A program made the translations under genes and the position numbers. 64,000 nt of DNA from Amanita rubescens (taxonomy: Eukaryota; Basidiomycota; Agaricomycetes; Agaricales; Amanitaceae): contig WION01000005.1 in NCBI GenBank assembly GCA_015039365.1, positions 1-64,000 on the forward strand. Reading direction: 5' to 3'. The notes below the pieces were generated by a model that did not search any database, was not told the origin of the DNA, and worked only from the letters and a program-made list of their open reading frames with translations. This document shows positions 34,786 to 63,974 of this stretch, one piece after another (positions within the stretch are counted from its first letter, which is position 1; every line of letters starts with the position of its first letter).

Positions 34786-34873
34786 AAATAAGTCAAAAAC
34801 TTGTGACCGTTAAGACACCAAGGAACGCACTTGACATGTTGGACCACATCCATCAGGAAAATGCCAAACTGAC

Positions 34874-35231: not shown

Positions 35232-35437
35232 AGTTGAGGACCACAGAGAGAGAGAGAGAGAGCTAGGTACGGCAGGGAGCTGACAGGGTGGGCACGTCCA
35301 CATTGAGGACCACAGAGAGCTAGGTGCGGCAGGGAGGTAACAGGCATGTCCACATTGAGGACCAGGTGCGGCAGGGAGCTAACAGGTGGGCGCGTCCACA
35401 TTGTGGACCACAGAGAGAGGCTAGGTGCGGCAGCAAT
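35232..35437. repeat. tandem array, ~50-60 bp units x4
   Basis: Units contain GAGGACCACAGAGAGAG(GCTAGGTGCGGCAGGGAG, TAACAGG and GCACGTCCACATT. Copy 1 has a longer GA run. Minus-strand frames across it are repeat artefacts. Confidence 0.85.
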
Positions 35438-36254: not shown

Positions 36255-36915
36255 AATAGACCGTAATACGCCCTATGTCTAATTATATCTAGTTCGCAAT
36301 TTGGTGTTTTCCTGATGTCAATGAAAGGACGATCGCAAGGATCATCTGGCTCATCTTCGTCTACGTGGGTGGGATTGATCAATACGTTCCCCCAGCTTAT
36401 GTCCCGATGGAGGACCTGATGGTCCTCAACGAGCAGTCGATGGACTAAACGTGATAAGTTGTATATCGAGGCAGGGACAGGTACTTACCTTCAACTAAGT
36501 CATACATGGCCTTTAGGAATTCCATCACCGAGGGACAGGACGAAAGGGCCTGTCCAAGTGACTTCATCACAAGGAAGACGCTCTGACGGGACACATGATC
36601 TCCGCCAGTCAGAGAACCTGAAGGTGCCGGTGTCGTGTCCCGTGACAACACTCGAGAGTTGTGAAAGTCCACTCGCACGATGCCAGCGGTACATCGCTTC
36701 TTTTCTAATGGCCTATTATAAATGTGCTGCATAATTTGCAGCTCATTGAAACGTCGTCGCGAATCGTGCCAATAGTGCTTGATAACATTCCAATCTAAGC
36801 GCTCATCGATGTGCTCGCTAATTCCAATGCCGACGTAAGCATTTCGGTGCCAACCGTCACCTCGGTGAAGGTCAAACAGCCTATTCGTAGTAGACGTCCC
36901 CGGGAGGTGGAACCG
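36255..36915 (-). pseudogene. FunK1-type kinase, middle part with catalytic loop
   Basis: Reads on the minus strand FHLPGTSTTNRLFDLHRGDG, WHRNAYVGIGISEHIDERLD, a kinase N-lobe stretch including SVFLVMKSLGQALSSCPSVM, an intron (GTAAGTACC donor near 36486) and then the catalytic loop HQVLHRDISWGNVLINPTHV, with EDEPDDPCDRPFID. HRD-x-S-x-GN is the FunK1 form of the kinase HRDxxxxN motif. It is cut at 36916 by the LTR of element A and loses homology near 36250. Frame continuity with 63975-64000 shows that element A inserted into an exon. Confidence 0.85.
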
Positions 36916-37242
36916 TGTCAAGCCCCTGTTTTACTCCTTGATACGCCGCATGCTTCGTGCATGTACTGACTCATGTACCCTATACCCTATGACATAGTAT
37001 GACTCATACCCCGTACCCTATGACTCATACCCTACGCCCTAGGTAGTATATAAGTAGCGTATATTGTAGTACATACCCTAAGCAACAAGCTAGTCTTTCC
37101 TTGGACAGCTCGGAGCTCCTCCCCTCTCAACTTTGCCCTGAACCTCGACGGTTCTTGTATTCGCCCTCGCTGCTTGACACGGTCAGCAGTAGCCTAGAGT
37201 GATTGAGTCTTGTGTTGTGTAGCCTGTCTAAGGCTCGTGACA
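36916..37242 (+). repeat. 5' LTR of element A
   Basis: Begins TGTCAAGCCCC and ends GGCTCGTGACA. TATA box TATATAAG at 37047-37054. The presumed transcript start lies about 33 nt downstream at AAGCAACAAGCT (37080-37091), the sequence complementary to the primer site. GACTCATACCCTA-like short repeats fill 36970-37035. Confidence 0.95.
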
Positions 37243-37244
37243 TA

Positions 37245-37256
37245 AGCTTGTTGCTT
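37245..37256 (+). promoter_or_regulatory. self-complementary primer binding site of element A
   Basis: AGCTTGTTGCTT, 2 nt after the LTR, is the exact reverse complement of AAGCAACAAGCT at 37080-37091 in the LTR. No TGG start as expected for a tRNA CCA end. This is the arrangement of self-priming elements such as Tf1 and sushi, in which the 5' end of the RNA folds back as primer. Confidence 0.75.
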
Positions 37257-37400
37257 TTCTTCACACCACTCACCACGAATTTCCTAAGGATTTTCCTCGC
37301 TATCGCCCTGATAGCACACCTCACATACCTCTACCTTGTAGCAGTTTATATTGCACAAGTACACCAACAACTTTACACAACTCCAAACACCCGTTAAACC

Positions 37401-38738
37401 ATGGCCCTACCAGCTGCGCTCACCGCGATCGCGCTGGCAGGATTCACCTACCTCATGCGACGAAATAGGATACAGGTTGTCCAACCAACATTCGACGAGG
37501 CCGGAAACATCGTCGGAGCAACCTCGACAACGGCTATACCCACCATAGAAACGATTACAACAGAAACCGAAGATGCAACTATTGCTGCAGCAGCAATGGG
37601 AGCAAACATTGCAAACGTTGTAGAACAATTATGGGTACAAAACGAAAACTTCCAACGGCAACTAGCACAACAACAACAAGAGTTTGAAAGACAACTCGGA
37701 CGAGAACGACGTGCTGCGGAAAGAGCCGATAGGGACGCCGACAGGCTTAGGACGCGACCCCCGGAATTAAAAGTCGAACCACCAGAACATTACGAAGGAG
37801 AACCGGCGGAGATAGATGCATGGCTACGAAGAATGAATTATTACTTCGTTCAAGTACGACTGGCCGATGATTTGGGACGTATTACATACGCGGTCCAACG
37901 CATCAGAAAAGGAAAAGGAAACCGGGCAACTAATTGGGCAAATGGTAAAATAGGAGAAATCGCACAGAACGACGAAGAAAGGATTAGGTTTGCAAACACC
38001 TATCCAGGGCGAACCTGTACCCATTACCAGGCATGTACGACAGTCCCGGCAGAAGAAGCGACACCAGAGCACCCGGCATGGGAAGAATACGCCTTCATAC
38101 ATAAACCACCATTCCTTAACTGGGGGGCATTTGTAACGGAAGCAAGGGAATACTTCCTAACAACGGAAACACGGGATGAAGTGGTAAAGAAACTTCGAGA
38201 ACTCAAACAAGGAGAAAAAACGATCGAAGAATACATTATCGAATTCAAAGGATGGGCTCAACTCTCAGGATTCGATGAAATCGCACTAATCGATCAATTC
38301 AAAAGAGGAGTCAAAACCGGTGTAGGAAGAAGGGTAATCGAACTTGGAAACCCAGGTGACGGTAGCCAACCAGGACAACTCCAGGCATGGTACGCTAGGG
38401 CAACAGAGATAGAAAAGCAATTCCGAGAAGCCGAAAAATATTACGGCAAAAGGGAATTTAAAGTCACAAGGACAAACGCGCAAGCCGGACCAAGCCAAAC
38501 GAAAAAGGAAACGATCACGGTCAAAGTAAAGGACGAAAACGCAATGGACGTAGACCAAACACCTACAACCCGTCCGCCGCCGAAATGTTATAACTGCGGA
38601 AAAATAGGGCACATTGCGAAGTATTGTAAAGGGAAGACCGTCATCAGGAGACAAGCCGTAGGAGATTACTTCGGAACAATGACCGAAGAAGAAAAGAATG
38701 AAATGAAGGAGAAACTGGGTTTTGTCAAGGATCAGTGA
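37401..38738 (+). CDS. gag: element A Gag
   Basis: 445-residue structural protein. N-terminus MALPAALTAIALAGFTYLMR is hydrophobic like a membrane anchor, unusual for Gag. Residues ~85-115 form a Gln/Arg/Glu-rich coiled coil (RQLAQQQQEFERQLGRERRA). The capsid-like Retrotrans_gag region follows (IDAWLRRMNYYFVQVRLADD; REYFLTTETRDEVVKKLREL; LDQFKRG-like IDQFKRGVKTGVGRR). One CCHC zinc knuckle CYNCGKIGHIAKYC is at ~395-410. The stop at 38736-38738 overlaps the pol frame, which lies in the -1 frame. Start ATG 37401 is the first ATG after the leader and has ACC before it. Confidence 0.92.
   Translation: MALPAALTAIALAGFTYLMRRNRIQVVQPTFDEAGNIVGATSTTAIPTIETITTETEDATIAAAAMGANIANVVEQLWVQNENFQRQLAQQQQEFERQLGRERRAAERADRDADRLRTRPPELKVEPPEHYEGEPAEIDAWLRRMNYYFVQVRLADDLGRITYAVQRIRKGKGNRATNWANGKIGEIAQNDEERIRFANTYPGRTCTHYQACTTVPAEEATPEHPAWEEYAFIHKPPFLNWGAFVTEAREYFLTTETRDEVVKKLRELKQGEKTIEEYIIEFKGWAQLSGFDEIALIDQFKRGVKTGVGRRVIELGNPGDGSQPGQLQAWYARATEIEKQFREAEKYYGKREFKVTRTNAQAGPSQTKKETITVKVKDENAMDVDQTPTTRPPPKCYNCGKIGHIAKYCKGKTVIRRQAVGDYFGTMTEEEKNEMKEKLGFVKDQ
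38717..38723 (+). promoter_or_regulatory. candidate -1 frameshift site, GGGTTTT
   Basis: In the Gag frame the bases read G GGT TTT, a heptamer of the X XXY YYZ type, 12 nt before the Gag stop. Slipping back one base gives TGT CAA GGA, an open path into pol. Confidence 0.6.
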
Positions 38739-39869
38739 AGGATAGTCCCTCTTCATTGATCCCCGAACAATGTATTTACGAATCTCTAGTACCTTCCGAA
38801 TATGTATCCCTTGAATCTATAATATACGAGGTGAAACAAAAGGAAGGGAAGATTCGAAACACATCAATAAGGGACAAAACAAACAAACTTAGAAACTCGT
38901 CATCAGCATGGATGATAAGACAATTATGGAAATATCCGGCACAAGGGATCACGCAATTACGGACATTCGCACACCAAACCTTCAGAGAGCAAATTGATGA
39001 AGAATTAATCAACAAAATCAATGGCCTCGAAGAAGAAGAAGCGATCTGGTATTTGCGAAAACTCAGGGAACCGCAATGGATCGGAGCATCAGGACATAGA
39101 GAAATGGACATACGAGTCATTCTCACCACACAGGACACGGAAGAAAGCTTCGATACCATAGCATTGATCGACAGCGGATGCATGATGTCGGCGATATCCA
39201 AACAATTCGTCGAGGAACACAAGATCAACACGACCAAATTACCACGAGCAATAACCGCTACAAACGCCGACGGAACGTTAAACGTCGGAGGAAAGATAAC
39301 GGATATGGTTACAATCAAAATGAGGATTTACGACCATGAAGAAACGTTAGAACTAGCAGTGGTAAACATTGGAAAGAAAGACGTATTCCTCGGACACGAT
39401 TGGCTGGAACATCATAACCCGGAAATCGAATGGCGGAAAGCCCAAATAAAATTTTCAAAATGTCCAGGAGAATGTTACGACGAATCATGGGTCAGAGAAC
39501 CAGAAGATGAAATAAATCAATACGACCCAGAAGAAGATAAAATACTGGCCATCGATATTGATCGACCCGAATTCATACGACATGTCGACCTCCCCTGGAT
39601 AAAAGTACGAGCAAAATCAAACTTTGCGACGGATATCGCGGGAGCAAATCAGATCGAAAGAACTTGGAAGGAGATAGTACCGGAGGTATACCGCGATTAC
39701 AAAGAAGTGTTTGAAAAACAGACATTCGACCAATTACCACCGAGAAGGGCATGGGACCACGCAATCGAACTAACACCAGGAGCGAAAATGGTAGATTGCA
39801 AAATATACCCGTTAAACCCAGAAGAGCAAAAACAATTGGACGAATTCCTGAAAGAACAATTGGAAACGG
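38724..39869 (+). CDS. pol: element A Pol, N-terminal part (protease, start of RT), split
   Basis: Open -1 frame after Gag, without an ATG near its start, so it is probably made as a Gag-Pol fusion. Retroviral-type aspartic protease with FDTIALIDSGCMMSAISKQF (DSG catalytic triplet) and the partner segment VVNIGKKDVFLGHDWLEHHN. Ends in the RT N-terminus: WDHAIELTPGAKMVDCKIYP, then EEQKQLDEFLKEQLET. The coding sequence is interrupted after GAAACGG by element B; the frame resumes at 60333 once B and one copy of ACGG are removed. Confidence 0.92.
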
Positions 39870-40187
39870 TGTAACGTGCCGATACCGGCTACGTTGTACT
39901 CAGTGCTCAAACCCGACACATGGCGGGCTCCGACCTCCGACACTGCGGACCCCGAAACCCGACATCGGACGCATCGGATCGTCGGACGCATGTAGTACAT
40001 GAGGTAGACATTATATAAACATGTCGTAGTTTAGTTTTATACACCTTCTTTCCTTCCGACCACTTTAGTTCCATCGTCCGACAGTGCGGCTGAGGTTGGG
40101 TGCGACTGCCCCGTCCACCGAACTCATTCGGCACACGCCGAAACACTCGGGGGTTGTGCGCAACACAGCCTCTTTTGAGTTGTTACA
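39870..40187 (+). repeat. 5' LTR of element B
   Basis: TGTAACGTGCCGATACC..TTTTGAGTTGTTACA. TATATAAA at 40012-40019 is the likely TATA box. Confidence 0.93.
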
Positions 40188-41544
40188 ACTGGAGCCCACC
40201 GCTCGGTCCAGCCTTTGGCCGCACTCAAGAAACCCTCGTTTTTCATTCACAAACAGCCCCGGAGGCGCTCATTCTTTCTGGACGGCCCCATCAGCTCATT
40301 CCCGCTCCCATACATCTGCTAGTTACCGCCAAACACGCCGCATCTGCACTACAGCCCTCCGACATACACAGCACCGCTGCTATCTGCCATCCGCCACATC
40401 AGCTCCGATCTGCCCGCCTACGCATCATTCCTGGCTCCGCACCCCGCCACTCGATGCCTACAGTCATCCGCAGCCCTATCGGATCCCATCAAGCACCATC
40501 CGCATGCACTGCCTCGCACCACGTGTCCACCTCATGCACCATGGCCCGCTTTTACATCCTACCCCGTTGCTCGATGTTTACAGCCTACCAGATCCCGCCT
40601 GGCGACGTCTACAGCTTACTGCACCCTTACTGGATCGCATCAGAAACCATCGGGAGCCCGCCAAGCCAGCCACACGACGTCCACAGCCTATTGCAGCCTT
40701 ATCGGGACTTATCGGAGCCCATCGACTGCTATCGCGCGCCCTATTCCTCAGCTGCCGACTTGTAGCATACCTCATGTTCAGGCCTCATGTATCAGACACT
40801 CCCGGAGCACAGCCGCCAGTCATTTCATGCCAACCCGACCCTTCGTCGTCGGATCGCATTCCCTACCTCACCGACATGTGTAGACCACACTCCTGCACCT
40901 TCCCTTCACTTCTTGCACTTGCCACAGCCGTCCGCCGCCGCTCCTATGCCTTTCGGACACTACCAGCACCTCGGCTCACTCTACCACCGTTCCGCCGACA
41001 CCCGTGAGTCGCAATTCTTTTTTTTCAGCCTTTTTTTTCTTTTCTACCCAGGATCGGGATACGGCGTAGCCGTATTCGTTCAAAACGGCCAAGTTCATGC
41101 TCAATCGGACCCTCAACCCATGTCTCATCACCATCGGCATCACCTCAGCTCCAAAACCCTTATCAAGCCAGCCCGAAGCGTTAACAGAGTGTGGGGGATG
41201 TTGGAACAGAATCAGGATAACGGATATCAGTACGCACAACGCAGGACTCACCTTAGGCCCTTTATCATTTGACTAGCACTACCGACTCCGACACCACTCT
41301 TTAACACCGTATTGCGCCGACGGCGTCTCAGGAAACATCATAGCAGCCTTACAGGGGTCCGTGCTATTGATTCGGATTACTGGGATGACCGCGATCGCGG
41401 GAAGTAGCGCCCCACCTCGCCAACACTTTCTACCGCCTACAACGACATCCGCCGACACGCCATCTGCTATCTGCACCTCGACACGCCCCTCCTCCACATC
41501 CCGACAACATCCGCAGCACGCCGACTGCCACTGAGACCTCCAAC
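40188..41544 (+). other. element B internal region, left part
   Basis: Starts AC then TGGAGCCCACCGCTCGG (40190-40206); the TGG start suits priming by a tRNA CCA end, unlike A and C. The rest is C-rich, purine-poor DNA. A 307-codon frame (from 40084 inside the LTR) is Pro/His/Ser/Arg-rich without any retroelement motif, and a second frame of 221 codons overlaps it; such frames are expected in stop-poor C-rich DNA. I do not call a gene. Ends at target duplication CCAAC (41540-41544) of element C. Confidence 0.7.
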
Positions 41545-41997
41545 TGTTACAACACGGTACGGACTCCCGCATTATGCTTACATGATACGTCGGACATGTT
41601 TATTTTCCTTATGCATACCTTACTCGTCACTCCCCTTATGCTCGATTCATACGGACTAACTCGTTTCCTTACTTATACCAATCCTTGTTCCACATATGAC
41701 GCCGTCCTTATACTTACTTTCGTACTTACCATTATTCACTAATTAGTACGTCTCCTTGTACTTGCTAGTATAAGTACCGCTTGTATTCTAGAGTCGAACC
41801 CTAAGTTCGACTTAGCTGTTTATTGTCGTCTGACAATATAACCTTGCTCTTAAACTCATCTACCACAATCGTCCTCAGATCCTAAGTCAACGTCTTGACT
41901 TAGTATTGAACTTATAATCTTAACGTTTGACTTAAGACTTGTAATCGTGACAAGAGTTGCCGTTGCAACTTAGGTTGAGATTAACGAGTTCGTAACA
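41545..41997 (+). repeat. 5' LTR of element C
   Basis: TATAAG at 41769-41774 is a candidate TATA box. TAAGTTCGACTTA at 41802-41814, 33 nt downstream, is the likely RNA 5' end and matches the primer site in reverse complement. Confidence 0.93.
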
Positions 41998-41999
41998 AT

Positions 42000-42012
42000 T
42001 AAGTCGAACTTA
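42000..42012 (+). promoter_or_regulatory. self-complementary primer binding site of element C
   Basis: TAAGTCGAACTTA, 2 nt after the LTR, is the exact 13-nt reverse complement of 41802-41814. Same geometry as in element A. Confidence 0.78.
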
Positions 42013-42036
42013 TCAATAAGCCTGAACATCGATTCA

Positions 42037-43831
42037 TTGGCATTTGATAACACACACTTCGACGAACTTCCGGAAAGCCAGCCCGTAGGTTACTGGCCAC
42101 GTTGTCAAAACGGATTGGAGAGCTCCACCAAATAGAGCTACACGAGATCGTAAAGGGAACTACGTTCTTGACGGATACTACGTCAGACTAAACGGTGCAA
42201 AACGAATCTGGGAAGATACAGGAGGGAATCCAGTTAAAGAACAAGAATTCTGGATACCACAAAAAGAAACTAGACCTCTGAACGAATCATACTATTACTT
42301 CGCAGATCTATATCTTCAGGAACAACACATCAGATTCGATCACCTCACAGAACGTTGGATAGCATCCGAGACACAAGACTTTGTCCCTAACGAATACTTC
42401 AACACCCCTACTTGGATAAAAGGGACTGTTGATGCTCTACCGGAAAACTTAAGACCGAAAATTCTCCAATCCATACAGACAACTACAAAAGGCAAAAAGA
42501 AAGCAAATTTTGGCCTAAACGATAGTGAATCCGAGAAAGAAGAAGAAACAGATCAAAAACCCGATCTATCTCTTGATTTTCTCAGTGACCTTTCAATTGG
42601 AACGACACCAACACCTGCCCAACAACCGACCAATCCCGAACCAGGTCCTTCGAACCCTAAAGAAGAAAAGGACGAAGAAGACCCGTTTGACTCTGACAGA
42701 ATCAAAGTAGACGAACCTAAACCCGATCCAACTCCACCGCGCAGAGATCCATCACCCCCACCATCACCAAGAATGTCTGGAGGAAGTACAGACCCTATAC
42801 CCAACCCACGAACCCCTAGTCTCATCGGAGATCTCCCTGAATTTAAAGGGAAGCGAAAAGATGCCAATACGTTCATAGAAGATATCGAAATCTTCTTTGA
42901 CATGAATCCTGAACGGATGAATACAGACCGTTTAAAGATCCTTGCTGCCCTAAACAAGATCTCAGATGGAGCTAGACAGTGGAAAAAGAATAAATTAGCG
43001 GAGTTACGAAAATCACGCGCTACCGTTGAAGGAGGCGTCACAAGACCCGCTTTATTCGATGACTGGGAAGCATTCAAACTATCATTCTTGACAGATTGGG
43101 GAGAAGTTGATCCGAGCGGAAATGCATACACGAAAATTCTCAATCTACAGAACAGATCGTCCATGAAAGGAAAGAAACAGATGACCTTGCCTAATTACGT
43201 CAATCAGTTCAAGGAACAAATCACGAAAGCAGGAATCGAAGGAGAAGCAGCATTCCATATGTTCGGAAAAGGACTCACAGCACCCGAGTTCGAAAAAGCA
43301 ATGCTCATGAACCCAAAAACATTACAAGATTGGTACGACATTGCTATCAAACTCGACAACATCCGAACCCGTTCATACGCTTATTCCCCCCGATCTGGAA
43401 ATGGTCATTCATCATCCTCTCATAACGACGAATCATGGGCTATGCAGATCGATCATAAATTTCTAGAACAAGAAGAAGACCCAGAACTAGAACTCATGAT
43501 CAGATCTATGTCCAAAGAAGAAAGAGAACGCTACATCAAAGACGGTTTATGTTTTATCTGCGGAATCAAAGGACACATGTCAGGGCAATGCCCGAAGAAG
43601 AAAAGAAACAAAGGGAAAGGCCGATTTAAAGGAGGAAGGAAAAGAGGATTCACGCCCAAACGTCACATTCGAGCCACATCAAATGATGGTGACGGAAATT
43701 GGGAAGAAGAAGAAGTCCGAGAGTCTAAACCAAATTACACCAAGAACATCCGAGCGCTGATGAAAGGGATGTCAACCGACGAAAAGAATGATCTATTACT
43801 ATCTCTTGCCGATGATAACGAGGATTTTTGA
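42037..43831 (+). CDS. gag: element C Gag, 5' end apparently damaged
   Basis: The clear frame from ATG 42773 encodes 352 residues with capsid-like TFIEDIEIFFDMNPERMNTD, FLTDWGEVDPSGNAYTKILN, FHMFGKGLTAPEFEKAMLMN and a CCHC knuckle CFICGIKGHMSGQCP, then a basic tail. The same frame is open upstream to about 42105 (GYYVRLNGAKRIWEDTGGNP; WIASETQDFVPNEYFNTPTW; acidic Pro-rich stretch) without any ATG. A further plausible N-terminal piece (FDNTHFDELPESQPVGYWPR) lies in another frame from about 42037, where TTG occupies the expected start. Either this copy lost its start codon and gained a 1-nt shift near 42120, or it uses a non-AUG start. Stop 43829-43831 overlaps pol. Confidence 0.8.
43825..43831 (+). 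promoter_or_regulatory. Gag stop / -1 shift site TTTTTGA
   Basis: Gag ends GAT TTT TGA. Slipping back one base on the T run gives TTG ACA GTG, directly into the pol frame, so the overlap suits -1 frameshifting at the stop. Confidence 0.5.
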
Positions 43832-45493
43832 CAGTGGGACTCATGACAGTGGATGAAGTCTCAGACACACCAGATTCAACTCTCGATATATCTCATGTAA
43901 CAGTACAATCTATTTCGAAACGAAGATTATCTGTCCCTATCAAAGTTGAAACTGAAAACAACACTGAAAACCTCGTTGCCCTTGTCGACTGCGGAGCCGA
44001 AGGGATATTTATCGACAAAAGGATAGCACACAAATGGAGAAAACGAAAAATTCTACGACCAATTAGAGTTTATAACGTCGATGGCACCATAAACAAAGAA
44101 GGAGAAATTGATGAACAATGTCTAATCACCTTCGAAATGAACGGAAAACGCATGACTGAATGGTTTTACGTATCAGCAATAGGAAAACAAACGGTTATAC
44201 TGGGGCTTCCTTGGTTAGAGAAGCATAACCCTGACGTAAATTGGAGAGAAAAGACTCTAGAGTTCCAAGACTCTGAACAGGACAAAATCAAGGCATCACT
44301 TCGGAGCATCTGTCAACAGATTGACAGAATAGCTATGCCTGAATGGGAAGAAGATCTCGTCATCGGATATTTGATGTCACACAAAGGATCACAGACGACA
44401 GATCACAGATGGAACACGCATACATTTGAGGATATAGGAAGCTGGTCAGAAGACGAATACGACCAAGTAACTATCGCACGATATACACCAGCTCAACAAA
44501 TGGAACACAAATACCATCAAACAGAGGAGGTTTACACGCTCCCTCCTGAATACTCGGCATGGAAAGATGTATTCGAGAAAAAAGCAAGTGAACGATTCCC
44601 GGAAAGCCGATCTTGGGATCACCAGATAGAACTTCGCGATGATTTCATACCAAAAAGAGGAAAAATCTATCCCTTATCTCCGAAACAGCAGAACACACTG
44701 GATGAATGGATCAAAGAACATGTTGAAAAAGGCTACATCAGACCATCGAAATCGCCGCAGGCATCACCTTTCTTCTTTGTAGAAAAGAAAGAAGCACAAA
44801 AACTACGACCCTGCCAAGACTATCGATATTTGAACGAATACACTAAACCAAACGCATATCCATTACCCCTTATCTCCGATCTTATGATTAAACTCAAAGA
44901 TTCGGAATACTTTACGAAATTGGACATCCGTTGGGGATATAATAACGTTCAAATCAAAGAATCTGACAGATGGAAAGCCGCCTTTATCACCAATCGAGGT
45001 TTATTTGAACCTAACGTCATGTTCTTTGGATTACGAAATTCACCAGCAACGTTCCAAGCTATGATGGACGATTATTTCAGGGATTTTACAGAAAAAGGAT
45101 GGCTCGTCATCTACATGGATGACATGCTAATACACGCGCGCACTAAAGAAGAACTCGAGATTCGAACGAAACAAGTACTTGAACGATTACAGAAACACGA
45201 TCTTTACCTCAAGCTTGAAAAGTGTAAATTCGCTGCCAAAGAAGTTGATTTTCTAGGCACCGTCATATCCAAAAATACAATAAAAATGGATCCGATCAAA
45301 CTTGCCGGAATCAGGGACTGGCCAACCCCTTCTACCGTTAAACAAGTTAGATCCTTTTTAGGATTCGGAAATTACTATCGAAGGTTTATTTTCGGATTCG
45401 CCCATCTTGCACGACCCCTGCACGACCTAACAAAGAAAAACAAATTATGGACATGGACCGCAGAATGCCAAGTCGCATTCGATCTATTAAAAG
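43828..45493 (+). CDS. pol: element C Pol, N-terminal part (protease, RT), split
   Basis: Begins in the -1 frame at the end of Gag. Protease region LVALVDCGAEGIFIDKRIAH has D-C-G where D-S/T-G is expected, an oddity worth checking; partner segment KQTVILGLPWLEKHNPDVNW. RT has the usual blocks: WDHQIELRDD, GYIRPSKSPQASPFFFVEKK, RPCQDYRYLNEYT, YFTKLDIRWGYNNVQIKE, FGLRNSPATFQAMMDD and the catalytic YMDD (near 45114). Ends in FLGFGNYYRRFIFGFAHLAR and CQVAFDLLK, where Copia element D interrupts. Removing D and one AAAAG copy continues in frame at 55574. Confidence 0.93.
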
Positions 45494-46198
45494 TGTTGAA
45501 CTTATAATATACGATATACATACAGTATATAGTAAATATAAGTGATATCATTAGTTTACACTAACTAATGTAATAACGCTCAGTTACTTACTCGTCTCTC
45601 AACCAATCATAATAGTGGATGATTGAGTGTGAGATAATATATTGACATGAGAATATATTCAACATATTCTCATACTCATCTACCAATCATAATAGTGGAT
45701 GATTGATGATGAGAACATATTCTGACATGAGAATATTCTAGCGATATTCTCATAAGATCATCCAATCATAATAGTGGAACTATTGATGATGTGAATATAT
45801 GTTGACATGAGAATAGAAGACATATATACGTTATGGTTATCGACCTATCACATTGAAGATTGATAATGTGATGAGTCAGTCAATATAATTGATGAGTCAA
45901 GTGCTGCGCAAAGCTATGCATTGCTGTACAATAGCTGTGCATTGCTGTGGAATGACGCCTTATGAGTCAAATACCTTTGACTCATACTGATAAGACTCTT
46001 TATACTTATTTGTAGTTTAGTAGTATATAAACTGTACTCTAGTAGCGTCAATCCTTATCCTATTATCCTCTCTACTGTCTACTGTTGAGCCCCAGCTCCA
46101 GTAAGCTCTTAACAACTCCACACCACACTCGGTAAGTAGTACATTCTATGTACTAGACTGCGCTGCTCGCTAGGGACTTGTTACCCCTAGTTTCAACA
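45494..46198 (+). repeat. 5' LTR of element D
   Basis: TGTTGAACTTATAATATACG..CCCCTAGTTTCAACA. TATATAAA at 46024-46031. Internal short repeats CCAATCATAATAGTGGA (three times, 45602-45776) and GACATGAGAATA. Two splice-donor-like sites, GTAAGC at 46101 and GTAAGT at 46132, lie downstream of the likely transcript start. Confidence 0.95.
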
Positions 46199-46211
46199 GG
46201 TTATGGGCCCC
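46199..46211 (+). promoter_or_regulatory. primer binding site of element D, half-tRNA-iMet type
   Basis: GGTTATGGGCCCC directly follows the LTR. GGTTATGGGCCC is the complement of the initiator-tRNA anticodon arm (..GGGCCCAUAACC), the site used by Drosophila copia, which primes with a 5' half of tRNA-iMet. Confidence 0.78.
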
Positions 46212-48681: not shown

Positions 48682-48875
48682 TTTACTTTCTAGTATTAAC
48701 ACTAGAATAGTAAAAAATACTATATTCTTGTCATTTCTGACATGAACGACATTAAGCTTAAGAAATCAGGACGGAAATTACATCATCACATATATTCTTA
48801 TGCCTTATTATTATTTGAACCTTTTCTTACGAAAAATCTTCTTAGATTTTAAACAAACTTAACCAAAGTAAGAAA
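48682..48875 (+). other. ORF1/gag-pol spacer of element D with acceptor-like site
   Basis: AT-rich 194-nt spacer. AATCTTCTTAG at 48836-48846 is a plausible splice acceptor about 30 nt before the Gag-Pol ATG, giving an alternative exon 2 for the LTR donor. Confidence 0.45.
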
Positions 48876-54848: not shown

Positions 54849-54863
54849 CTTAGCGAAGGGGAG
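54849..54863 (+). promoter_or_regulatory. polypurine tract of element D
   Basis: GCGAAGGGGAG lies immediately before the 3' LTR, the usual plus-strand primer position. Confidence 0.75.
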
Positions 54864-55568
54864 TGTTGAACTTATAATATACGATATACATACAGTATAT
54901 AGTAAATATAAGTGATATCATTAGTTTACACTAACTAATGTAATAACGCTCAGTTACTTACTCGTCTCTCAACCAATCATAATAGTGGATGATTGAGTGT
55001 GAGATAATATATTGACATGAGAATATATTCAACATATTCTCATACTCATCTACCAATCATAATAGTGGATGATTGATGATGAGAACATATTCTGACATGA
55101 GAATATTCTAGCGATATTCTCATAAGATCATCCAATCATAATAGTGGAACTATTGATGATGTGAATATATGTTGACATGAGAATAGAAGACATATATACG
55201 TTATGGTTATCGACCTATCACATTGAAGATTGATAATGTGATGAGTCAGTCAATATAATTGATGAGTCAAGTGCTGCGCAAAGCTATGCATTGCTGTACA
55301 ATAGCTGTGCATTGCTGTGGAATGACGCCTTATGAGTCAAATACCTTTGACTCATACTGATAAGACTCTTTATACTTATTTGTAGTTTAGTAGTATATAA
55401 ACTGTACTCTAGTAGCGTCAATCCTTATCCTATTATCCTCTCTACTGTCTACTGTTGAGCCCCAGCTCCAGTAAGCTCTTAACAACTCCACACCACACTC
55501 GGTAAGTAGTACATTCTATGTACTAGACTGCGCTGCTCGCTAGGGACTTGTTACCCCTAGTTTCAACA
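54864..55568 (+). repeat. 3' LTR of element D
   Basis: Same 705-bp sequence as 45494-46198; no difference found by eye. Its end joins the AAAAG duplication and the continuing pol frame of element C. Confidence 0.95.
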
Positions 55569-55573
55569 AAAAG

Positions 55574-57519
55574 AACGCTTCACATCCGCGCCTGTCTTGA
55601 TGATGCCCGACGTTAACAAACCTTTCATTCTACAAACGGACGCATCAGATCGCGCTATCGGAGCAGTTCTTATGCAGAAAGATGACAATGGCGACTTACA
55701 CCCATGCGGATACCTATCCCACGCTTTAACACCGACTGAAACACGATGGCAAATCTACGACCGAGAGTTATTCGCCATTTACTACGCTCTTTACAACGAA
55801 TGGAGATACCTGCTTGAAGGAGCAGAACACCCTGTCATTATTCATTGCGACCACAAGAACCTACTCTACTATCGAGAACCACAACGTCTTACAAACCGCC
55901 AAGCACGATGGTGGAACGACTTGTCTCGATTTAATATTAAATTAACGCATGTTCCTGGAGCGAAACTAATAATAGCGGATGCTTTATCCCGCCGACCCGA
56001 TCATATGACAAAAGACGAACCAGAAGAGTTAATAACAATGCTCCCAAAAGAACTCTTTGTTCGCACGATCGCCGAAGATCTCCGTGACAGAGCAATAGAA
56101 ATAACTGTCAAAGATGAATTCGCTCAATCAATCAAGAAATGCCTAAAAGAAAAAGGAACACCGCCTTTACGAACAGCCCTTTCTGATTGGACCCTCGACA
56201 ACGAATTAATCCTATACAAAGGGAAATCTTTTATCCCTCCTGACACCGATCTTCGCCGAGATATTATTAGAGATTTTCATGAATCACCAACAAGCGGACA
56301 CCCCGGTTTCTTCAAAACGCTAGCCTTATTAAAGGAATATTACTGGTGGCCATTAATGTCTAAAATGGTTAAACAGTTTATTGACGGATGCACGGCATGT
56401 CAACAAATGAAATCAAATACTCACCCTACCGCCGCACCCCTGATGCCAATCAAGTCTCACGCACACCGACCCTTCCAACAAATAACCATGGATTTCATAA
56501 CCGACTTACCCATAAGTGACGGTTTTGATTCTATCTTTATCGTGGTCGATCAAGGACTTACAAAGGGAGTAATTCTCATGCCTTGTAATAAAACTATCAC
56601 CGCCGACGAAACCGCCGACCTCTACATTCGGAATGTATTCAAAAATTTCGGTTTACCCGACATCATGATCTCCGATCGAGGACCACAGTTCGCATCACAT
56701 GTCTTTAACGGCATAATGGACTCATTAAAGATCAAACATAAAATGAGTACCGCCTTCCATCCACAAACTGATGGACAAACGGAACGATATAACGCCGAAT
56801 TAGAAGCTTATCTGCGAATATTCTGTGCCTATGAACCAGATACTTGGAACAAGATGATACCAATAGCACAATTCGCGCATAATTCACGCACTCATGAAGC
56901 GTTGAAACAATCACCCTTTCAATTGATGTATGGAACATCCCCGGTTGCACTTCCCCTTGTCTCAAATAAGACAAATACACCAACCGCCGATAACCGCATC
57001 AACTCTCTGTTCCGCGCACGAGAAGAAGCACTCGCCGCACATGATCTAGCACGAGCTAAGATGATGGAAAGAACAACGAGAAAGACTAAACCGTTCAAAG
57101 TCAATGACAAAGTATGGTTAGAATCTAGGAACCTGAAGATTCCTTATCAGAGCAGAAAGCTCGCACCTAAACGAGAAGGTCCCTTTTCCATCAAAGAAGT
57201 CTTAGGACCAGTGACATATCGTCTCACGCTACCAAGACAATGGAAAATTCATAACGTATTCCACGCCGCCTTACTAACGCCGTTCAAAGAAACTTCCTTT
57301 CACGGAATAACAGAAACAAGGCCCCCTCCCGATCTGATCGAAGGAGAAAAAGAATACGAAGTAGAAGCACTGCTTGCACATCGCAAGTTCAGAGGGAAAT
57401 TACAATTCCTAGTAAAGTGGAAAGGCTATGACACCAGCGAAAACACATGGGAACCAGAAAATAACTTGACGCATATGGAAGACCTCCTTCTAGAATATAA
57501 AAGACGAAGGAAACTCTGA
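55574..57519 (+). CDS. pol: element C Pol, C-terminal part (RNase H, integrase, chromodomain)
   Basis: Continues the frame broken at 45493 (the junction codes ..LLK then ERFTSAPVLMMPD). RNase H starts PFILQTDASDRAIGAVLMQK and includes FAIYYALYNEWRYLLEGAEH and HCDHKNLLYYREPQRL. Integrase HHCC zinc region ESPTSGHPGFFKTLALLKEY with GCTACQQMK; catalytic Asp in QITMDFITDLP, Asp in ISDRGPQFAS, Glu further on in the DGQTERYNAELE segment. GPFSIKEVLGPVTYRLTLPR is the usual GPY/F module. The C-terminal chromodomain reads YEVEALLAHRKFRGKLQFLV and KWKGYDTSENTWEPENNL, placing C in the chromoviruses. Stop TGA 57517-57519 is followed after one A by ATG 57521. Confidence 0.95.
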
Positions 57520-57520
57520 A

Positions 57521-58087
57521 ATGTCATTCAAATTATTATGCAAAATGGAAACGACACCACCGACGCCGTTCAGCACTTCCCCTGGTCTGAATTCTACGCT
57601 GGAGAGAACACCGACACCCGACTCACCACTTTCACTGAACCCCACCGACCTCGACTCGTTCTTCATACCACCGACACCGACGAAGAAGACACTGACCCGA
57701 ACGACTTCGTTGATGTTCCCTACAGATCTTCCGATCAGACCTCATCTCAAACGATCCCGGTCACTCCCACCGAAACCCAGGAAACCCATCACGGAACATC
57801 AGAAACTCTGGCTGTACCTGGACGAATTACGGAAGATCGCAATAGCCGACCGATCCCACCTAGAAACGCTGAAGACATTAGCGTTACCTTACATAGAGAG
57901 ACGGTATCTACCGGTCACGCTCCGACTCAACCTCATAACGAATCTATTCGAGGCAACGACCAGAGTCACGGTACAGATGGGACTAACCGCGATATGGCTG
58001 GCTCCATCATACGACCCACCCCCGATCTCTATCTCAGTTATCACGGAATTACTACTTACACCAAGGTTAGAGACCGCGTCACTCTGA
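57521..58087 (+). CDS. element C extra 3' ORF, frame 1 (188 codons)
   Basis: Starts one base after the pol stop (TGA-A-ATG), so it could be reached by termination-reinitiation. Pro/Thr/Ser-rich first half (TPTPDSPLSLNPTDLDSFFI; KRSRSLPPKPRKPITEHQK) and a helical Leu-rich second half (LWLYLDELRKIAIADRSHLE; RYLPVTLRLNLITNLFEATT). It overlaps the first ~180 codons of the 57538 frame in the other phase. The ordered amphipathic look of its second half suggests it is real and that the protein may continue into the other frame by frameshifting or splicing around 58000-58090. No known domain recognised. Confidence 0.5.
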   Translation: MSFKLLCKMETTPPTPFSTSPGLNSTLERTPTPDSPLSLNPTDLDSFFIPPTPTKKTLTRTTSLMFPTDLPIRPHLKRSRSLPPKPRKPITEHQKLWLYLDELRKIAIADRSHLETLKTLALPYIERRYLPVTLRLNLITNLFEATTRVTVQMGLTAIWLAPSYDPPPISISVITELLLTPRLETASL

Positions 58088-59271
58088 TCTGTAACGCCGC
58101 TAGACTACAAGTCGACGTCTTTGACCAAGAAAGGATAGCTCGAGTCTGGCGACTTCTCATGGACTTCCGAACCGCCACTACCCTTGCCGGTCAAGCCCGA
58201 GATCAGTACAATTATCATTGTGCCGATTTAATCGAAACGTTTGTAAACGTTACGTCACTATACTGGGAAGACGTTCATCCGAAAGGAGGAAACCTGGATC
58301 AATTGGCGATAGATCTATTACGACGACTTCTCACAGCTGACGTCGAGCGCTATATCATCCTAGCTATAGAAGGCATTGACGATCAAAGGTTTGGACTAAA
58401 AATACAGCCCCACGATCAGAATAACCGCATCGCTGTCAACCATTGGTTTCGCGCTACCGAAGCTACACCCGACCGACACCGAGCAACTAGATGCATTATG
58501 GAGACAGATCGTAAATCGAGAGAAATCTGGTGCCTCACCGGAAAGATCCGAGACCTCTTGTCCAGTATCCAAGGAGACACAGAATGGACAACAGCCGAAT
58601 TCGCAGATGGAGTTCCCTTGCATCAACTCACTAGCGACCACATTGCGCAGATCAATAATGCGATCAGCGATCTCGATCTTCATCGCCGAATCCGTACAAC
58701 AGGCGATCTCATTGAGGAAGAACCGAAACGAGATAAGAAGGCTCCTCCTCCTCCTCGATCCGCATCACCCCCAACCACCACCGTTATTCGCCACGGAGTC
58801 TGGAATATTCCTGTCCCCACTACTCGACGACACGACACTCCGCCTGCTCGACGACCTACGACCCGCAGTATGACCAATGCCGCCAACCAACGCCCTCACC
58901 GTTACAACCGTTGCATCCATTGCCGAGGTAAACATGCCTCTGAGGATCACCATCTTGCTACTACAATTCCTCCTATGTCTACTCTACCTCCACGCGCTCC
59001 CACGCGCCGACGCGATCCGACGCCCGGTCCTTCCACTAAGAAGAAAGGACGTTCTCGAATTACCACAGATGCCGCCAATACCCCCGCTTCCACTAGCCGC
59101 CGCCCTCATCAGCCGAAGAAGAAGGGAAAGAAGAAGGCACACCACGCGTCACAGTGTCAGGCATGCGTCAACGGACGACAATGCGATGGAGCCGACGACG
59201 ACGCCTGCGATCTTTACGGCGACTACGGCTATCACCACGACGACGACGCCATGCACAACATGAACACCTGA
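57538..59271 (+). CDS. element C extra 3' ORF, frame 2 (577 codons), zinc-knuckle-like
   Basis: Additional gene after pol, not a standard part of Gypsy elements. Residues 1-160: Thr/Asp/Arg-rich, low complexity. ~165-385: folded-looking helical region (RDRVTLICNAARLQVDVFDQ; WRLLMDFRTATTLAGQARDQ; LDQLAIDLLRRLLTADVERY; DHIAQINNAISDLDLHRRIR). ~390-455: Pro/Arg-rich. CIHCRGKHASEDHH at ~459-472 is a possible CCHH zinc motif, followed by Lys/Arg-rich and Cys/Asp/His-rich tail (CQACVNGRQCDGADDDACDL). No signal peptide or membrane segment, so not env-like in any recognisable way; a nucleic-acid-binding role is inference. Ends 40 bp before the 3' LTR polypurine tract. Confidence 0.7.
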   Translation: MQNGNDTTDAVQHFPWSEFYAGENTDTRLTTFTEPHRPRLVLHTTDTDEEDTDPNDFVDVPYRSSDQTSSQTIPVTPTETQETHHGTSETLAVPGRITEDRNSRPIPPRNAEDISVTLHRETVSTGHAPTQPHNESIRGNDQSHGTDGTNRDMAGSIIRPTPDLYLSYHGITTYTKVRDRVTLICNAARLQVDVFDQERIARVWRLLMDFRTATTLAGQARDQYNYHCADLIETFVNVTSLYWEDVHPKGGNLDQLAIDLLRRLLTADVERYIILAIEGIDDQRFGLKIQPHDQNNRIAVNHWFRATEATPDRHRATRCIMETDRKSREIWCLTGKIRDLLSSIQGDTEWTTAEFADGVPLHQLTSDHIAQINNAISDLDLHRRIRTTGDLIEEEPKRDKKAPPPPRSASPPTTTVIRHGVWNIPVPTTRRHDTPPARRPTTRSMTNAANQRPHRYNRCIHCRGKHASEDHHLATTIPPMSTLPPRAPTRRRDPTPGPSTKKKGRSRITTDAANTPASTSRRPHQPKKKGKKKAHHASQCQACVNGRQCDGADDDACDLYGDYGYHHDDDAMHNMNT

Positions 59272-59300
59272 ACGTTTTGTTGTTGCGGTCAACAACGTAG

Positions 59301-59311
59301 GGGAGAGCTAG
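59301..59311 (+). promoter_or_regulatory. polypurine tract of element C
   Basis: AGGGGAGAGCTAG sits directly before the 3' LTR at 59312. Confidence 0.65.
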
Positions 59312-59764
59312 TGTTACAACACGGTACGGACTCCCGCATTATGCTTACATGATACGTCGGACATGTTTATTTTCCTTATGCATACCTTACTCGTCACTCC
59401 CCTTATGCTCGATTCATACGGACTAACTCGTTTCCTTACTTATACCAATCCTTGTTCCACATATGACGCCGTCCTTATACTTACTTTCGTACTTACCATT
59501 ATTCACTAATTAGTATGTCTCCTTGTACTTGCTAGTATAAGTACCGCTTGTATTCTAGAGTCGAACCCTAAGTTCGACTTAGCTGTTTATTGTCGTCTGA
59601 CAATATAACCTTGCTCTTAAACTCATCTACCACAATCGTCCTCAGATCCTAAGTCAACGTCTTGACTTAGTATTGAACTTATAATCTTAACGTTTGACTT
59701 AAGACTTGTAATCGTGACAAGAGTTGCCGTTGCAACTTAGGTTGAGATTAACGAGTTCGTAACA
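59312..59764 (+). repeat. 3' LTR of element C
   Basis: Matches 41545-41997 except one C/T difference near 59517. Followed by CCAAC. Confidence 0.95.
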
Positions 59765-59769
59765 CCAAC

Positions 59770-60014
59770 ACTTCCTGAACCCTATCGCCATCCCCGACTC
59801 CCTTGCTTGCAACTACCTACGCACAATCGGACGCCGTCGACACTACGTCTCACCTCCGATGCCTCTTCCGTCGACGCCAACATTCTGTCTCATTCAATCA
59901 CGGACTTCCGCTGCCCTTCCGACTCGGACACTCCGCTTCCGACACTTCACCTTGTTCATCCACCGACCCGATGCAGGTTGACGGTGACGTCAACATTCAA
60001 AACTGGTGAGCGGG
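59770..60014 (+). other. element B internal region, right part
   Basis: 245 bp of C-rich sequence continuing 40188-41539 of element B. Two short overlapping frames (68-70 codons) are not supported. GGTGAGCGGG just before the 3' LTR of B is the nearest thing to a polypurine tract. Confidence 0.7.
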
Positions 60015-60332
60015 TGTAACGTGCCGATACCGGCTACGTTGTACTCAGTGCTCAAACCCGACACATGGCGGGCTCCGACCTCCGACACTGCGGACCCCGA
60101 AACCCGACATCGGACGCATCGGATCATCGGACGCATGTAGTACATGAGGTAGACATTATATAAACATGTCGTAGTTTAGTTTTATACACCTTCTTTCCTT
60201 CCGACCACTTTAGTTCCATCGTCCGACAGTGCGGCTGAGGTTGGGTGCGACTGCCCCGTCCACCGAACTCATTCGGCACACGCCGAAACACTCGGGGGTT
60301 GTGCGCAACACAGCCTCTTTTGAGTTGTTACA
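60015..60332 (+). repeat. 3' LTR of element B
   Basis: Same length as 39870-40187 with one G/A difference. Followed by ACGG and the resumed pol frame of element A. Confidence 0.95.
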
Positions 60333-60336
60333 ACGG

Positions 60337-63290
60337 GAAGAATCAAACCAAGTAAATCGCCCATGGCGTCACCATTCTTCTTCGTAAAAAAGAAAGACGG
60401 AAAACTACGGCCAGTTCAAGATTATCGGAAATTAAACGAAATGACTATCAAAAATAGATATCCATTACCGCTAATCTCGGAACTAATCGACAAGTTATCC
60501 GAAGCAAAATACTTCTCAAAGATGGACGTAAGATGGGGATATAACAATATTAGGATCAAAGAAGGCGACGAATGGAAAGCTGCGTTCCGAACAAACCGAG
60601 GATTATTCGAACCATTGGTAATGTTCTTCGGATTAACCAATTCCCCGGCGACATTCCAAACGATGATGAACGATATCTTCAGAGAAGAAATCGCAGAAGG
60701 ATGGGTCGTAATCTATATGGACGACATCTTGGTATTCTCAAAAGACAAAAAAGAACATCAAGAACAAGTCAAGAGAATCCTCGAAAAATTACGACAACAT
60801 CAACTTTCGTTAAAAGCGGAAAAATGCTACTTCGAACAAGAAGAGATCGAATTCCTAGGACTAATCATTTCAAATAAAGGAATACGGATGGACCCTAATA
60901 AAGTAAAGGCAATAGCCGAATGGCCAACGCCAACAACAAAAAGGGAACTTCAACAATTCCTCGGATTTGTCAACTTCTACCGAAGGTTCATTAAAGGCTT
61001 TGCAAAAATAGCAAAAGCGTTAACGAAACTAACGGGAAAAATTGAATGGTTATGGACAGAATTGCAACAAGAAGCATTCGAAGGATTAAAAAAGGAAATC
61101 GCCTCGGAAAGGGTCCTTATCATCCCTAAACCGGGAAGACCCTTCCGAATGGAAACGGATGCATCAGATTTCGCGATCGCCGCAATACTTTCCCAACTCG
61201 ATGACGATGGAATTTGGAAACCCGTAGCGTTCATATCGAAAGCGCTAAATGACGCAGAAAGAAACTACGAAATATACGACAAAGAAATGCTAGCGGTAAT
61301 GCAAGGATTCTATGACTGGGCTCATTATCTCAAAGGAACCGAAACGGTAACGGAAGTGTTAACAGATCATCAAAATCTTACATACTTCCGAAAACTGCAA
61401 AACTTAAACAGGAGACAAGCCCGATGGATCATGGACCTACAAGAATACAATTTTGTCATAAAACATCGATCAGGGAAAACGAACACAAAAGCTGATATAT
61501 TATCCAGAAGAGCCGGACATCCGCAAGGAGAAAACGATAACGAAAATATCATTCTCCTAAAAGAAGACGTATTTGGAAAAATCGAAATCAGAATAGATGA
61601 CGAAAGTTACGAATGGCTAAGTATTCGACAAGAAATTCGTAACACACATCGTCGATACTTCGACAAGCAAGTAATCAAGGGAATAAAAGAAAAAGACTCA
61701 GATTTCAAATACGACACCCTTGATCAATGCTGGGAATGGAAAGGACGAATATACGTACCGGCAAAACCGGAAATCCGAGAAAGGGTAATCAGTTCGAACC
61801 ATGACGTAAAAACGGCGGGACATCCAGGAGTCGCAAAAACTCTGGAATTAACGACAAGAGGATTCTGGTGGCCCAACATGAAACGGGACATTGAAACATA
61901 CATCAAAGCATGTCATCAATGCCAAATCAATAAACCCAACAGACAACCCCGGGCGGCGCCATTACAACCGAATGAAATTCCATCAGAACCATGGGCAGTA
62001 ATCAGCGTAGACCTTATCGGACCATTAGTACCGTCAAGGGGAAAAGATATGATCTTGGTAATAGTTGATCGGTTTTCGAAAAAGGCTTACTTCATTCCAT
62101 GCAACACGACAATAACATCGCAAGGAGTGGCAAACCTTTATCGGGAACATATATTCAAAGAGCAAGGACTACCGAAAAAGGTTATATCAGATCGGGGAAC
62201 GCAATTCGTATCTGGGTTTATGAAGGGATTATACCAAACATTAGGAATAGAAGCAAATCCTTCAACGGCGTACCATCCACAAACAGACGGACAAACAGAA
62301 CGAGTAAATCAGGAACTGGAAGAATACCTACGAATGTATGTAAATGAAAAACAAGACGACTGGACGGATTGGCTCCCCATAGCTCAATTCTGCCATAACG
62401 ATCGACGACATTCGGCGACAGGGTTTTCCCCTTTTATGATTACAACAGGGAGGAATCCATTCAAAGGAACGGAAGGCAAAACGGAAACGACGAACCACTC
62501 GGCTGCGGAATACATCGAAAAATTCAAAGAGACATGGAAAACGGTAAAGGTAAACTTGGAACAAGCTGCCGAAAGGATGAAAAAACAACACGATAAACAT
62601 GTCAAACCATCCCGATGGTATCAACCAGGAGATCGAGTGTATCTAGATTCGTCCAAAATTAAAACAACAAGGACATCGAAGAAACTCGACGCAAAGTTCC
62701 ACGGACCCTTCAAAGTAATTTCCGAAGTAGGGAAATCGGCGTATAAACTGGAACTACCACCGACATGGGGGATACACGATGTCTTCCACGAATCGAAACT
62801 TAAACCAGTCTACGAACCGCAATTCCCGGCGCAGCAAGAAAACGAACCACGGCCGCCACCGGAAATTATTAATGGACGTGAAGAATACGAAGTAGAAGCC
62901 GTGAAAGGGGTAAGAAAAACGAGGCAAGGGAAACATTTCTTAGTGAAATGGAAAGGGTTACCCGAAGAAGAAAATACCTGGGAACCTGAGGAACACATGG
63001 AAAACGCAAAGAAGGCGATAAAGGAATATTATAAAAAGAACCCTTCCGCGTTACGACAAAATAAACCCCTTCCTCTCCTCCCCCCATCGTCTCTGTCTCC
63101 AACCCCCTCTGGCCCGCCGACACCGACACCCCCGCATCTCCTTCCCCTCTATGTTCCACACCCGCGTCTTTATGGATGGGATGACAACGCCTTCGACGAA
63201 GAATACCGACGGAAACTCGAGAATAACTGGCAACGCTGGAAGAGCGCACGCGAAGAAGCGAATTCATCGCAAGGACCCACACCAGTTTAA
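60337..63290 (+). CDS. pol: element A Pol, C-terminal part (RT, RNase H, integrase, chromodomain)
   Basis: Resumes the frame broken at 39869 (junction ..QLET then GRIKPSKSPMASPFFFVKKK). RT: LRPVQDYRKLNEMTIKNRYP, YFSKMDVRWGYNNIRIKEG, FGLTNSPATFQTMMNDIF, catalytic YMDDIL (near 60715). Tether FLGFVNFYRRFIKGFAKIAK. RNase H: FRMETDASDFAIAAILSQLD, VLTDHQNLTYFRKLQNLNRR. Integrase: zinc region TAGHPGVAKTLELTTRGFWW with ACHQCQINKP, catalytic blocks SVDLIGPL, ISDRGTQFVSG and the HPQTDGQTERVNQELE Glu. GPY/F: GPFKVISEVGKSAYKLELPP. Chromodomain YEVEAVKGVRKTRQGKHFLV KWKGLPEEENTWEPEEHM. Pro-rich C-terminal tail PLPLLPPSSLSPTPSGPPTP. Intact apart from element B. Confidence 0.95.
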
Positions 63291-63567
63291 AGTGACTGAT
63301 ACCTGTAGCAACAAGATCCAGTACGAACAGGGAGAGAAAAAGATAGAAACAACGAGGAATCGGGAGAGGACGCACCTAGGCAAGATCATGGGTGATGCCT
63401 CAAACGAGGAATCGCGAGATGTCAACGAGCATTCGGTGAACCCTGGAGACGGACCCCTACGTGGAAAGTCGAAAGGCCTAACCTTAGCGTTCGATAGTAA
63501 CCTCCCGTCGGCATTGGACGCAGGTCTGGTAACGGGTAAAGATGAAGGAGCATCAGGAAGAATGTGA
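63151..63567 (+). CDS. element A small 3' ORF overlapping pol (138 codons)
   Basis: Overlaps the last 140 nt of pol in another frame and ends 75 nt before the 3' LTR. Basic and polar (HAKKRIHRKDPHQFKVTD; IQYEQGEKKIETTRNRERTH; SKGLTLAFDSNLPSALDAGL). No known domain. It may be chance or an accessory gene comparable in position to the extra 3' gene of element C. Confidence 0.35.
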   Translation: MFHTRVFMDGMTTPSTKNTDGNSRITGNAGRAHAKKRIHRKDPHQFKVTDTCSNKIQYEQGEKKIETTRNRERTHLGKIMGDASNEESRDVNEHSVNPGDGPLRGKSKGLTLAFDSNLPSALDAGLVTGKDEGASGRM

Positions 63568-63642
63568 GTGCCAATTGTCATTTCGTCAAATTTTTGGATC
63601 CCTTCCAGTTCATCTGGAATCCGAACCTTGAAACGGAGGCTA

Positions 63643-63969
63643 TGTCAAGCCCCTGTTTTACTCCTTGATACGCCGCATGCTTCGTGCATGTACTGACTCA
63701 TGTACCCTATACCCTATGACATAGTATGACTCATACCCCGTACCCTATGACTCATACCCTACGCCCTAGGTAGTATATAAGTAGCGTATATTGTAGTACA
63801 TACCCTAAGCAACAAGCTAGTCTTTCCTTGGACAGCTCGGAGCTCCTCCCCTCTCAACTTTGCCCTGAACCTTGACGGTTCTTGTATTCGCCCTCGCTGC
63901 TTGACACGGTCAGCAGTAGCCTAGAGTGATTGAGTCTTGTGTTGTGTAGCCTGTCTAAGGCTCGTGACA
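63643..63969 (+). repeat. 3' LTR of element A
   Basis: Matches 36916-37242 with one T/C difference. Preceded by GAAACGGAGGCTA, a weak polypurine tract, and followed by duplication AACCG and FunK1 coding sequence. Confidence 0.95.
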
Positions 63970-63974
63970 AACCG

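Follow-up and report, generated by a model that had tools for sequence, protein, structure and literature searches.

Among long terminal repeat (LTR) retrotransposons, the closest described counterpart of the system treated here is Phygy, a Ty3/gypsy non-chromovirus of the moss Physcomitrella with an insertion preference for NCGN, and among plant lineages the one that PMC6317226 names as having a motif. Its target site duplications (TSDs) are most commonly 4 bp long, and Phygy inside Tcn1 chromoviruses is the most common arrangement among 26 similar nested pairs, according to PMC6911290. The present analysis concerns a nest of four LTR retrotransposons, A to D, in a 64,000-nt stretch of the fungus Amanita rubescens (contig WION01000005.1, positions 1 to 64,000; hereafter the window), and above all its second element, B, whose kin integrate with a 4-bp NCGN duplication and thereby target as Phygy does. 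The window is C439:1-64000, from a contig of 1,228,967 bp in an assembly of 75.7 Mb in 786 contigs; C numbers below denote contigs and L numbers loci. The reading that we hold to be highly probable as a whole is that of a four-step nest in which B was directed to a CpG and was most likely mobilised by an autonomous family, L131. The elements, in order of insertion, are:

36916..63969, + strand: element A, Ty3/gypsy chromovirus; LTRs 36916-37242 and 63643-63969 (327 bp, 1 difference); TSD AACCG at 36911-36915 and 63970-63974
39870..60332, + strand: element B, non-autonomous LTR element; LTRs 39870-40187 and 60015-60332 (318 bp, 1 difference); TSD ACGG at 39866-39869 and 60333-60336
41545..59764, + strand: element C, Ty3/gypsy chromovirus; LTRs 41545-41997 and 59312-59764 (453 bp, 1 difference); TSD CCAAC at 41540-41544 and 59765-59769
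45494..55568, + strand: element D, Ty1/copia; LTRs 45494-46198 and 54864-55568 (705 bp, 0 differences); TSD AAAAG at 45489-45493 and 55569-55573

The likeness to Phygy lies in the NCGN motif, in a non-chromovirus gypsy lineage and in the way that Phygy inside Tcn1 recalls B inside A; the two are set side by side by targeting and not by integrase kinship, and they differ in that Phygy is described as consisting of rather short elements in a moss, whereas here a fungus carries an 8.46-kb autonomous family together with many non-autonomous elements. A literature search on NCGN and retrotransposons returned PMC6317226 only and no fungal report, and a term search of PMC3248453, on fungal LTR elements, gave no mention of TSDs; within the literature searched, the rule was previously known from moss Phygy only. 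Near-absolute demands on the target base seem to be uncommon among LTR integrases. A second NCGN case, fungal this time, which offers young copies in number, a candidate autonomous partner and a swarm of non-autonomous elements, brings the basis of target choice at the level of a dinucleotide within reach of testing.

B also invites comparison with non-coding LTR elements, terminal-repeat retrotransposons in miniature (TRIMs) and the larger large retrotransposon derivatives (LARDs). Both have been reported in Boletales (PMC5689174), and B shares with them its LTRs, its primer site, the apparent want of a recognised protein and a presumed movement in trans. With C and one duplication subtracted B measures 2,238 bp, and 12 of 13 listed B pairs span 2,237-2,604 bp (the other, of 9,011 bp, holds an insert), against the limit of <1000 bp given for TRIMs in PMC10886601. 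The same paper describes the fungal Helenus TRIMs, non-autonomous LTR elements like B, as having 5-bp duplications and a tRNA-like LTR; the group of B differs in its 4-bp TSD, and a tRNA or Rfam promoter was considered and rejected, ARAGORN placing no tRNA in the window and Rfam giving one chance-level match and none credible in the nest. At L010:1-2517 one B copy sits inside another, at CCGC.

A CpG at the target site of B and its kin

With B and the families akin to it, the 5' flank is in view at 57 distinct insertions and reads NCGN in 53 and NTGN or NCAN, the deamination product, in 4, and the 3' flank reads NCGN in 32/32; where both flanks are in view the 4-bp duplication is exact at 25 of 29 sites. 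CG makes up 4.6% of dinucleotides in the window, and the binomial probability for the flank CG is 7e-66. Decayed 5' flanks whose 3' counterpart is known keep CG on the 3' side (L009, L014 and L035, the last an allele of L030). Other flank positions are variable, the last of the four bases being G-rich (31/57) and the first rarely T (4/57). Five duplicate (allelic) sites had been removed before the count of 57, at L087 one alone of three primer sites had its LTR start in range and the others were not counted, and the uncounted loci are L031, L032, L041 and L042, with no match to the primer-site pattern, and L089, whose LTR start lies outside the stretch. The other copies of the control families carry 5-bp TSDs in 12/13 (A), 4/6 (C) and 8/8 (D), and CG falls anywhere within 3 of 28 control TSDs, the window's own included, in a list that omits two C copies without duplication.

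The rival that survives best, and even so a very unlikely one, is that CG reflects CpG-rich or methylated regions and not a reading of the dinucleotide by the integrase. It draws on the 9 of 23 tested B-type loci that are flanked by family A, B, C or P sequence, a count with no random control, but it predicts sites without CG, of which there are none among those counted. CG or its decay product stands at one exact position in 57/57 flanks, with no other flank position fixed, and a regional bias is rejected because it cannot give CG a fixed phase.

L131 as candidate mover of B

On its sequence B would be a non-autonomous LTR element without a recognised protein. It has two LTRs and a primer site, the two ORFs (open reading frames) tested in the window hold no Pfam domain, other frames not having been searched, and no ORF is common to all 13 listed B loci; a gag-only element was rejected on the same two grounds, no Pfam match and no frame shared by all copies. 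The primer site is the feature through which further relatives were sought:

40188..40210, + strand: B primer site ACTGGAGCCCACC..., also present in the autonomous family L131

Joined to the LTR end, it occurs at 184 genome places (at most two mismatches) against 2 for the reversed control. Of 20 stretches (0.9-1.8 kb) checked downstream of primer sites, 7 have a B-type end and 13 an end of the other type, and one, on C24 (L107), encodes reverse transcriptase (RT) in the correct orientation on inspection by eye, unflagged by tblastn with the A, C and D proteins; the other 19 are short and may be parts of autonomous elements, several of the primer sites belonging to L131-family copies. A cluster of three primer sites 1.2 kb apart lies on C124 (L087:1-4401), the last from an L131-family copy, and may represent clustered insertions.

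L131 itself is 8,457 bp long, with 487-bp LTRs that show no differences, a TSD of ACGG, a gag-protease frame and a pol frame. Further copies, drawn from the best 40 scored of 312 genome candidates for its LTR, have an exact NCGN TSD in 10/10 cases (11/11 with L131 itself). Its gypsy domain order without a chromodomain makes it a non-chromovirus gypsy element: Pfam recognises a protease in the gag frame and RNase H and an integrase zinc domain in the pol frame, scores RT (20.7 bits, cut-off 29.6) and the integrase core (28.2, cut-off 32.6) weakly in pol, and returns no chromodomain. The nearest relative of its integrase in the Protein Data Bank is foamy virus integrase, followed by that of Ty3; foamy virus makes 4-bp duplications. 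Relatives of its pol number 1405 proteins among 7986 candidates scored, and the named organisms among the 120 listed are Leucocoprinus, Candolleomyces, Pleurotus and Rhodofomes, all of them Agaricomycetes; because relatives occur there, the CpG rule could be clade-wide.

The L131 family is the most likely agent of B's movement, in trans: primer site and 4-bp NCGN duplication are common to both, and the LTR tips are alike. Sequence similarity is confined to those tips and the primer site, where it is 86-90% over 27-36 bp. Movement of B by A or C, the gypsy elements of its own nest, is even less likely than a regional bias. Such a mover would share the superfamily, and B-type elements do lie inside A-like and beside C-like sequence, but transfer by an A-, C- or D-type integrase is improbable because those families make 5-bp duplications where B makes one of 4 bp. 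NCGN 4-bp duplications are found in none of 13 A and 6 C copies, the target motif and LTR ends differ, and the primer sites of A and C are self-complementary over 12-13 nt as against at most 8 nt in B.

Several observations nonetheless weigh against the favoured reading of the locus. The kinship of L131 and B is limited to short end sequences, from which we infer movement in trans. Close B copies share open frames of 168-371 codons, which were not searched for relatives and which, strictly, leave room for a B protein. L006, L009, L012 and L014 lack exact duplications, the A copy L067 has a 4-bp match only (GATC), the site of A itself, AACCG, includes CG, and the flank sites are best-scoring matches and not a random sample.

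Given the observed anatomy, order, empty sites, duplication rule and shared ends, the locus was built as follows. A, apparently self-primed, entered a kinase gene; B, non-autonomous, entered the pol of A at the CpG of ACGG, an L131-type integrase presumably acting on it in trans and recognising the central CpG; C, a seemingly self-primed chromovirus with an extra third ORF, then entered B, and D, a copia element, the pol of C. A more speculative and rather doubtful extension is that L131-clade integrase itself recognises CpG, perhaps the methylated form. Base sequence, in place of a chromodomain, would then guide the elements and the passengers they carry into silenced, methylated transposon DNA, where they would nest in the manner of B in A.

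Order and empty sites of the nest

Four recent LTR-retrotransposon insertions, each into the preceding one, account for the locus, in the order A, B, C, D. Comparison of the window with itself yields four long direct-repeat pairs of at least 99% identity, nested in that order (the LTR edges of B and D were trimmed by eye to TG...CA). When each 5' LTR, the only query used, was searched against the genome and the best 40 of 103 (A), 98 (B), 420 (C) and 123 (D) candidates were scored, its mate was the top match, with bits for mate and next best of 586/563, 570/565, 813/782 and 1272/1254 respectively. Each inner insertion was checked against uninterrupted copies with sixty bases of either side taken separately, and the two flanks proved adjacent, overlapping by the TSD: those of B in 4/4 A copies compared, those of C in 11/11 B loci (two allele pairs among these), and those of D in 6/6 C copies. 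The site of A is likewise empty, AACCG standing once at the corresponding place in two kinase paralogues on C18.

No second haplotype of the nest locus was found in the genome with the dynactin p62 stretch and the kinase flanks as queries, and because none turned up, no allelic empty site is visible. An allele of the locus was considered and rejected: the dynactin p62 stretch has one full match, and the kinase flanks match paralogues only, at no more than 77% on the left and 75% on the right. Many repeats occur as pairs with identical flanks (L003/L004; L006/L007), which suggests two haplotypes in parts of the assembly, while the window locus is single.

An origin of the nest from separate repeats joined in assembly is scarcely credible. 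Highly similar repeats are numerous and the nest is known from the assembly, not from reads, but a random join would not give four LTR pairs, four TSDs, mates that are best matches and an empty site at each level. Weakest of all is the idea that CG is part of the element's own LTR edge and involves no target choice, for although every LTR counted has CG or a decay product before TG, the surrounding bases vary and mostly agree between flanks, CG also follows the 3' LTR, and empty sites already hold CG in three cases (ACGG in the uninterrupted A copies L016 and L024, and CCGC in the window B at the insertion site of L010). In two further A copies, L015 and L017, the B site reads ACAG, a change of CG to CA.

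Much of an earlier note on this DNA, drawn from the sequence by a model, stands: the LTR pairs of 327, 318, 453 and 705 bp, now aligned, have the 1, 1, 1 and 0 differences it placed there, the four duplications lie where it put them, its insertion order agrees with the nesting and with the empty sites of relatives at all four levels, in all four elements the 5' LTR has its mate as nearest relative among the candidates scored, and the youth it ascribed to the insertions holds. Its statement that removing the inserts restores the pol frames of A and C holds for phase, which agrees at both junctions by arithmetic, no joined pol having been made; in L024, an uninterrupted relative of A, both pol parts match in one frame by coordinates, stops not having been checked. 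It treated the four elements alike; B has no pol. It called complete nests of this depth rarely available; nests of one level or more are not uncommon in this genome: 9 of 67 other LTR pairs span >700 bp beyond a full-length element (the filling was inspected in L014 and L017 only), the 67 having been paired from the best-scored LTR lists, with unpaired LTRs left out, as were a D pair on C321 and a P pair on C737, both wide and ambiguous. The value it saw for the study of insertion preference is real, through a CpG target rule in B's group that it had not foreseen. That rule is moderately interesting and, as B's target rule, the main value of the locus; the nest itself is ordinary in kind.

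Element anatomy, LTR decay and surroundings

The remaining features of the nest and of the gene that it interrupts are:

36318..36915, - strand: part of a host gene for a fungal protein kinase (FunK1-type), on the left of A, broken by A and by a 1.47-kb element at 34851-36318
37243..37283, + strand: primer site region of A, pairing over 12 nt with the LTR from its position 165
37398..38738, + strand: A gag ORF with CCHC zinc knuckle, pol following in the -1 frame
38702..39874, + strand: A pol part 1 (protease), interrupted by B, the ORF extending a few bases into B
60324..63290, + strand: A pol part 2 (RT, RNase H, integrase, chromodomain)
41998..42038, + strand: primer site region of C, pairing over 13 nt with the LTR from its position 258
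42089..43831, + strand: C gag ORF, CCHC knuckle by eye, no Pfam match
43819..45507, + strand: C pol part 1 (RT), interrupted by D, the ORF extending a few bases into D
55561..57519, + strand: C pol part 2 (RNase H, integrase, chromodomain)
57520..59271, + strand: C third ORF, 583 codons, in the pol frame directly past the stop, with its own ATG after 18 bases
46199..46213, + strand: D primer site GGTTATGGGCCCCGA
47344..48681, + strand: D upstream ORF, 445 codons, preceding gag-pol, no family found
48846..54848, + strand: D gag-pol ORF, 2000 codons, integrase before RT

By Pfam, A holds gag, protease, RT, RNase H, integrase and chromodomain, the chromovirus order of RT, RNase H and integrase with a C-terminal chromodomain, and C has the chromovirus domains too, split over two pieces flanking D. 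The primer sites of both are complementary to a mid-LTR stretch some 30 bases past a TATA-like box (distance by eye), the layout of Tf1 self-priming; A and C would accordingly be self-primed in the Tf1 manner, with a putative transcript 5' end inside the LTR. They resemble the Tf1/sushi-type chromoviruses in their chromodomain and LTR-complementary primer site, and C differs in its additional third ORF past pol. On Tcn1 see PMC6317226. D is a Ty1/copia element of about 10 kb by its domain order (rve 935-1033, RVT_2 1453-1691). Its primer site presumably resembles the initiator tRNA-Met anticodon arm, a primer type known from Drosophila copia.

The third ORF of C likely encodes a functional accessory protein. 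It has no Pfam or NCBIfam family, and by eye a zinc-knuckle-like CX2CX4HX4H motif; it is fully open in 5 of 7 copies (window, L019, L020, L047, L049) and broken in L018 and L048. It is conserved, its ratio of nonsynonymous to synonymous substitution rates (dN/dS), well below 1, being 0.16-0.33 over ten pairs among the window, L018 up to its break, L020, L047 and L049, computed on this ORF alone with no yardstick gene and with L019 and L048 left out. Six relatives at E <=0.001, among 7992 candidates scored, carry no listed domain.

The earlier note also commended the nest for dating, a use that the LTRs do not bear out. Each of the three differences between LTR mates of the nest is a CpG transition, for which reason the LTR clock is unreliable, and the counts neither date nor order the insertions, their 95% Poisson intervals overlapping. 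At a rate of 1.05e-9 substitutions per site and year (PMC4905642), hand arithmetic turns 1/327 into about 1.5 My with an interval of <0.1 to about 8 My, and D into 0 to about 2.5 My, ages set aside as uninformative. CpG transitions fit 34 of the 45 substitutions in 32 LTR pairs, a set that omits the cut pair L050/L051 and two allele copies, L004 and L007; they fit 26 of 27 in B, where CpG makes up 35% of G+C positions, and the C copy L048 runs opposite, with 2 of 10 of CpG type. Together with three genome matches to the DNA methylase family PF00145, the pattern would be consistent with CpG methylation of transposon DNA, and in genomes of this kind an LTR clock may chiefly register deamination.

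The interrupted kinase gene matches PF17667 at 24.9 bits on one piece (cut-off 24.1) and 18 on another, with no Pfam match on two further pieces. Inside the same gene lies the 1,468-bp element at 34851-36318, with inverted terminal repeats CATCAGGAAAA...TTTTCCTGATG and copies 99.5 and 99.8% identical at C331 and C737. Elsewhere in the window, far from the nest, are tandem-repeat stretches at 16262-16716 and 7990-8535, and on the minus strand at 21208-22563 a gene for an NB-ARC and TPR protein.

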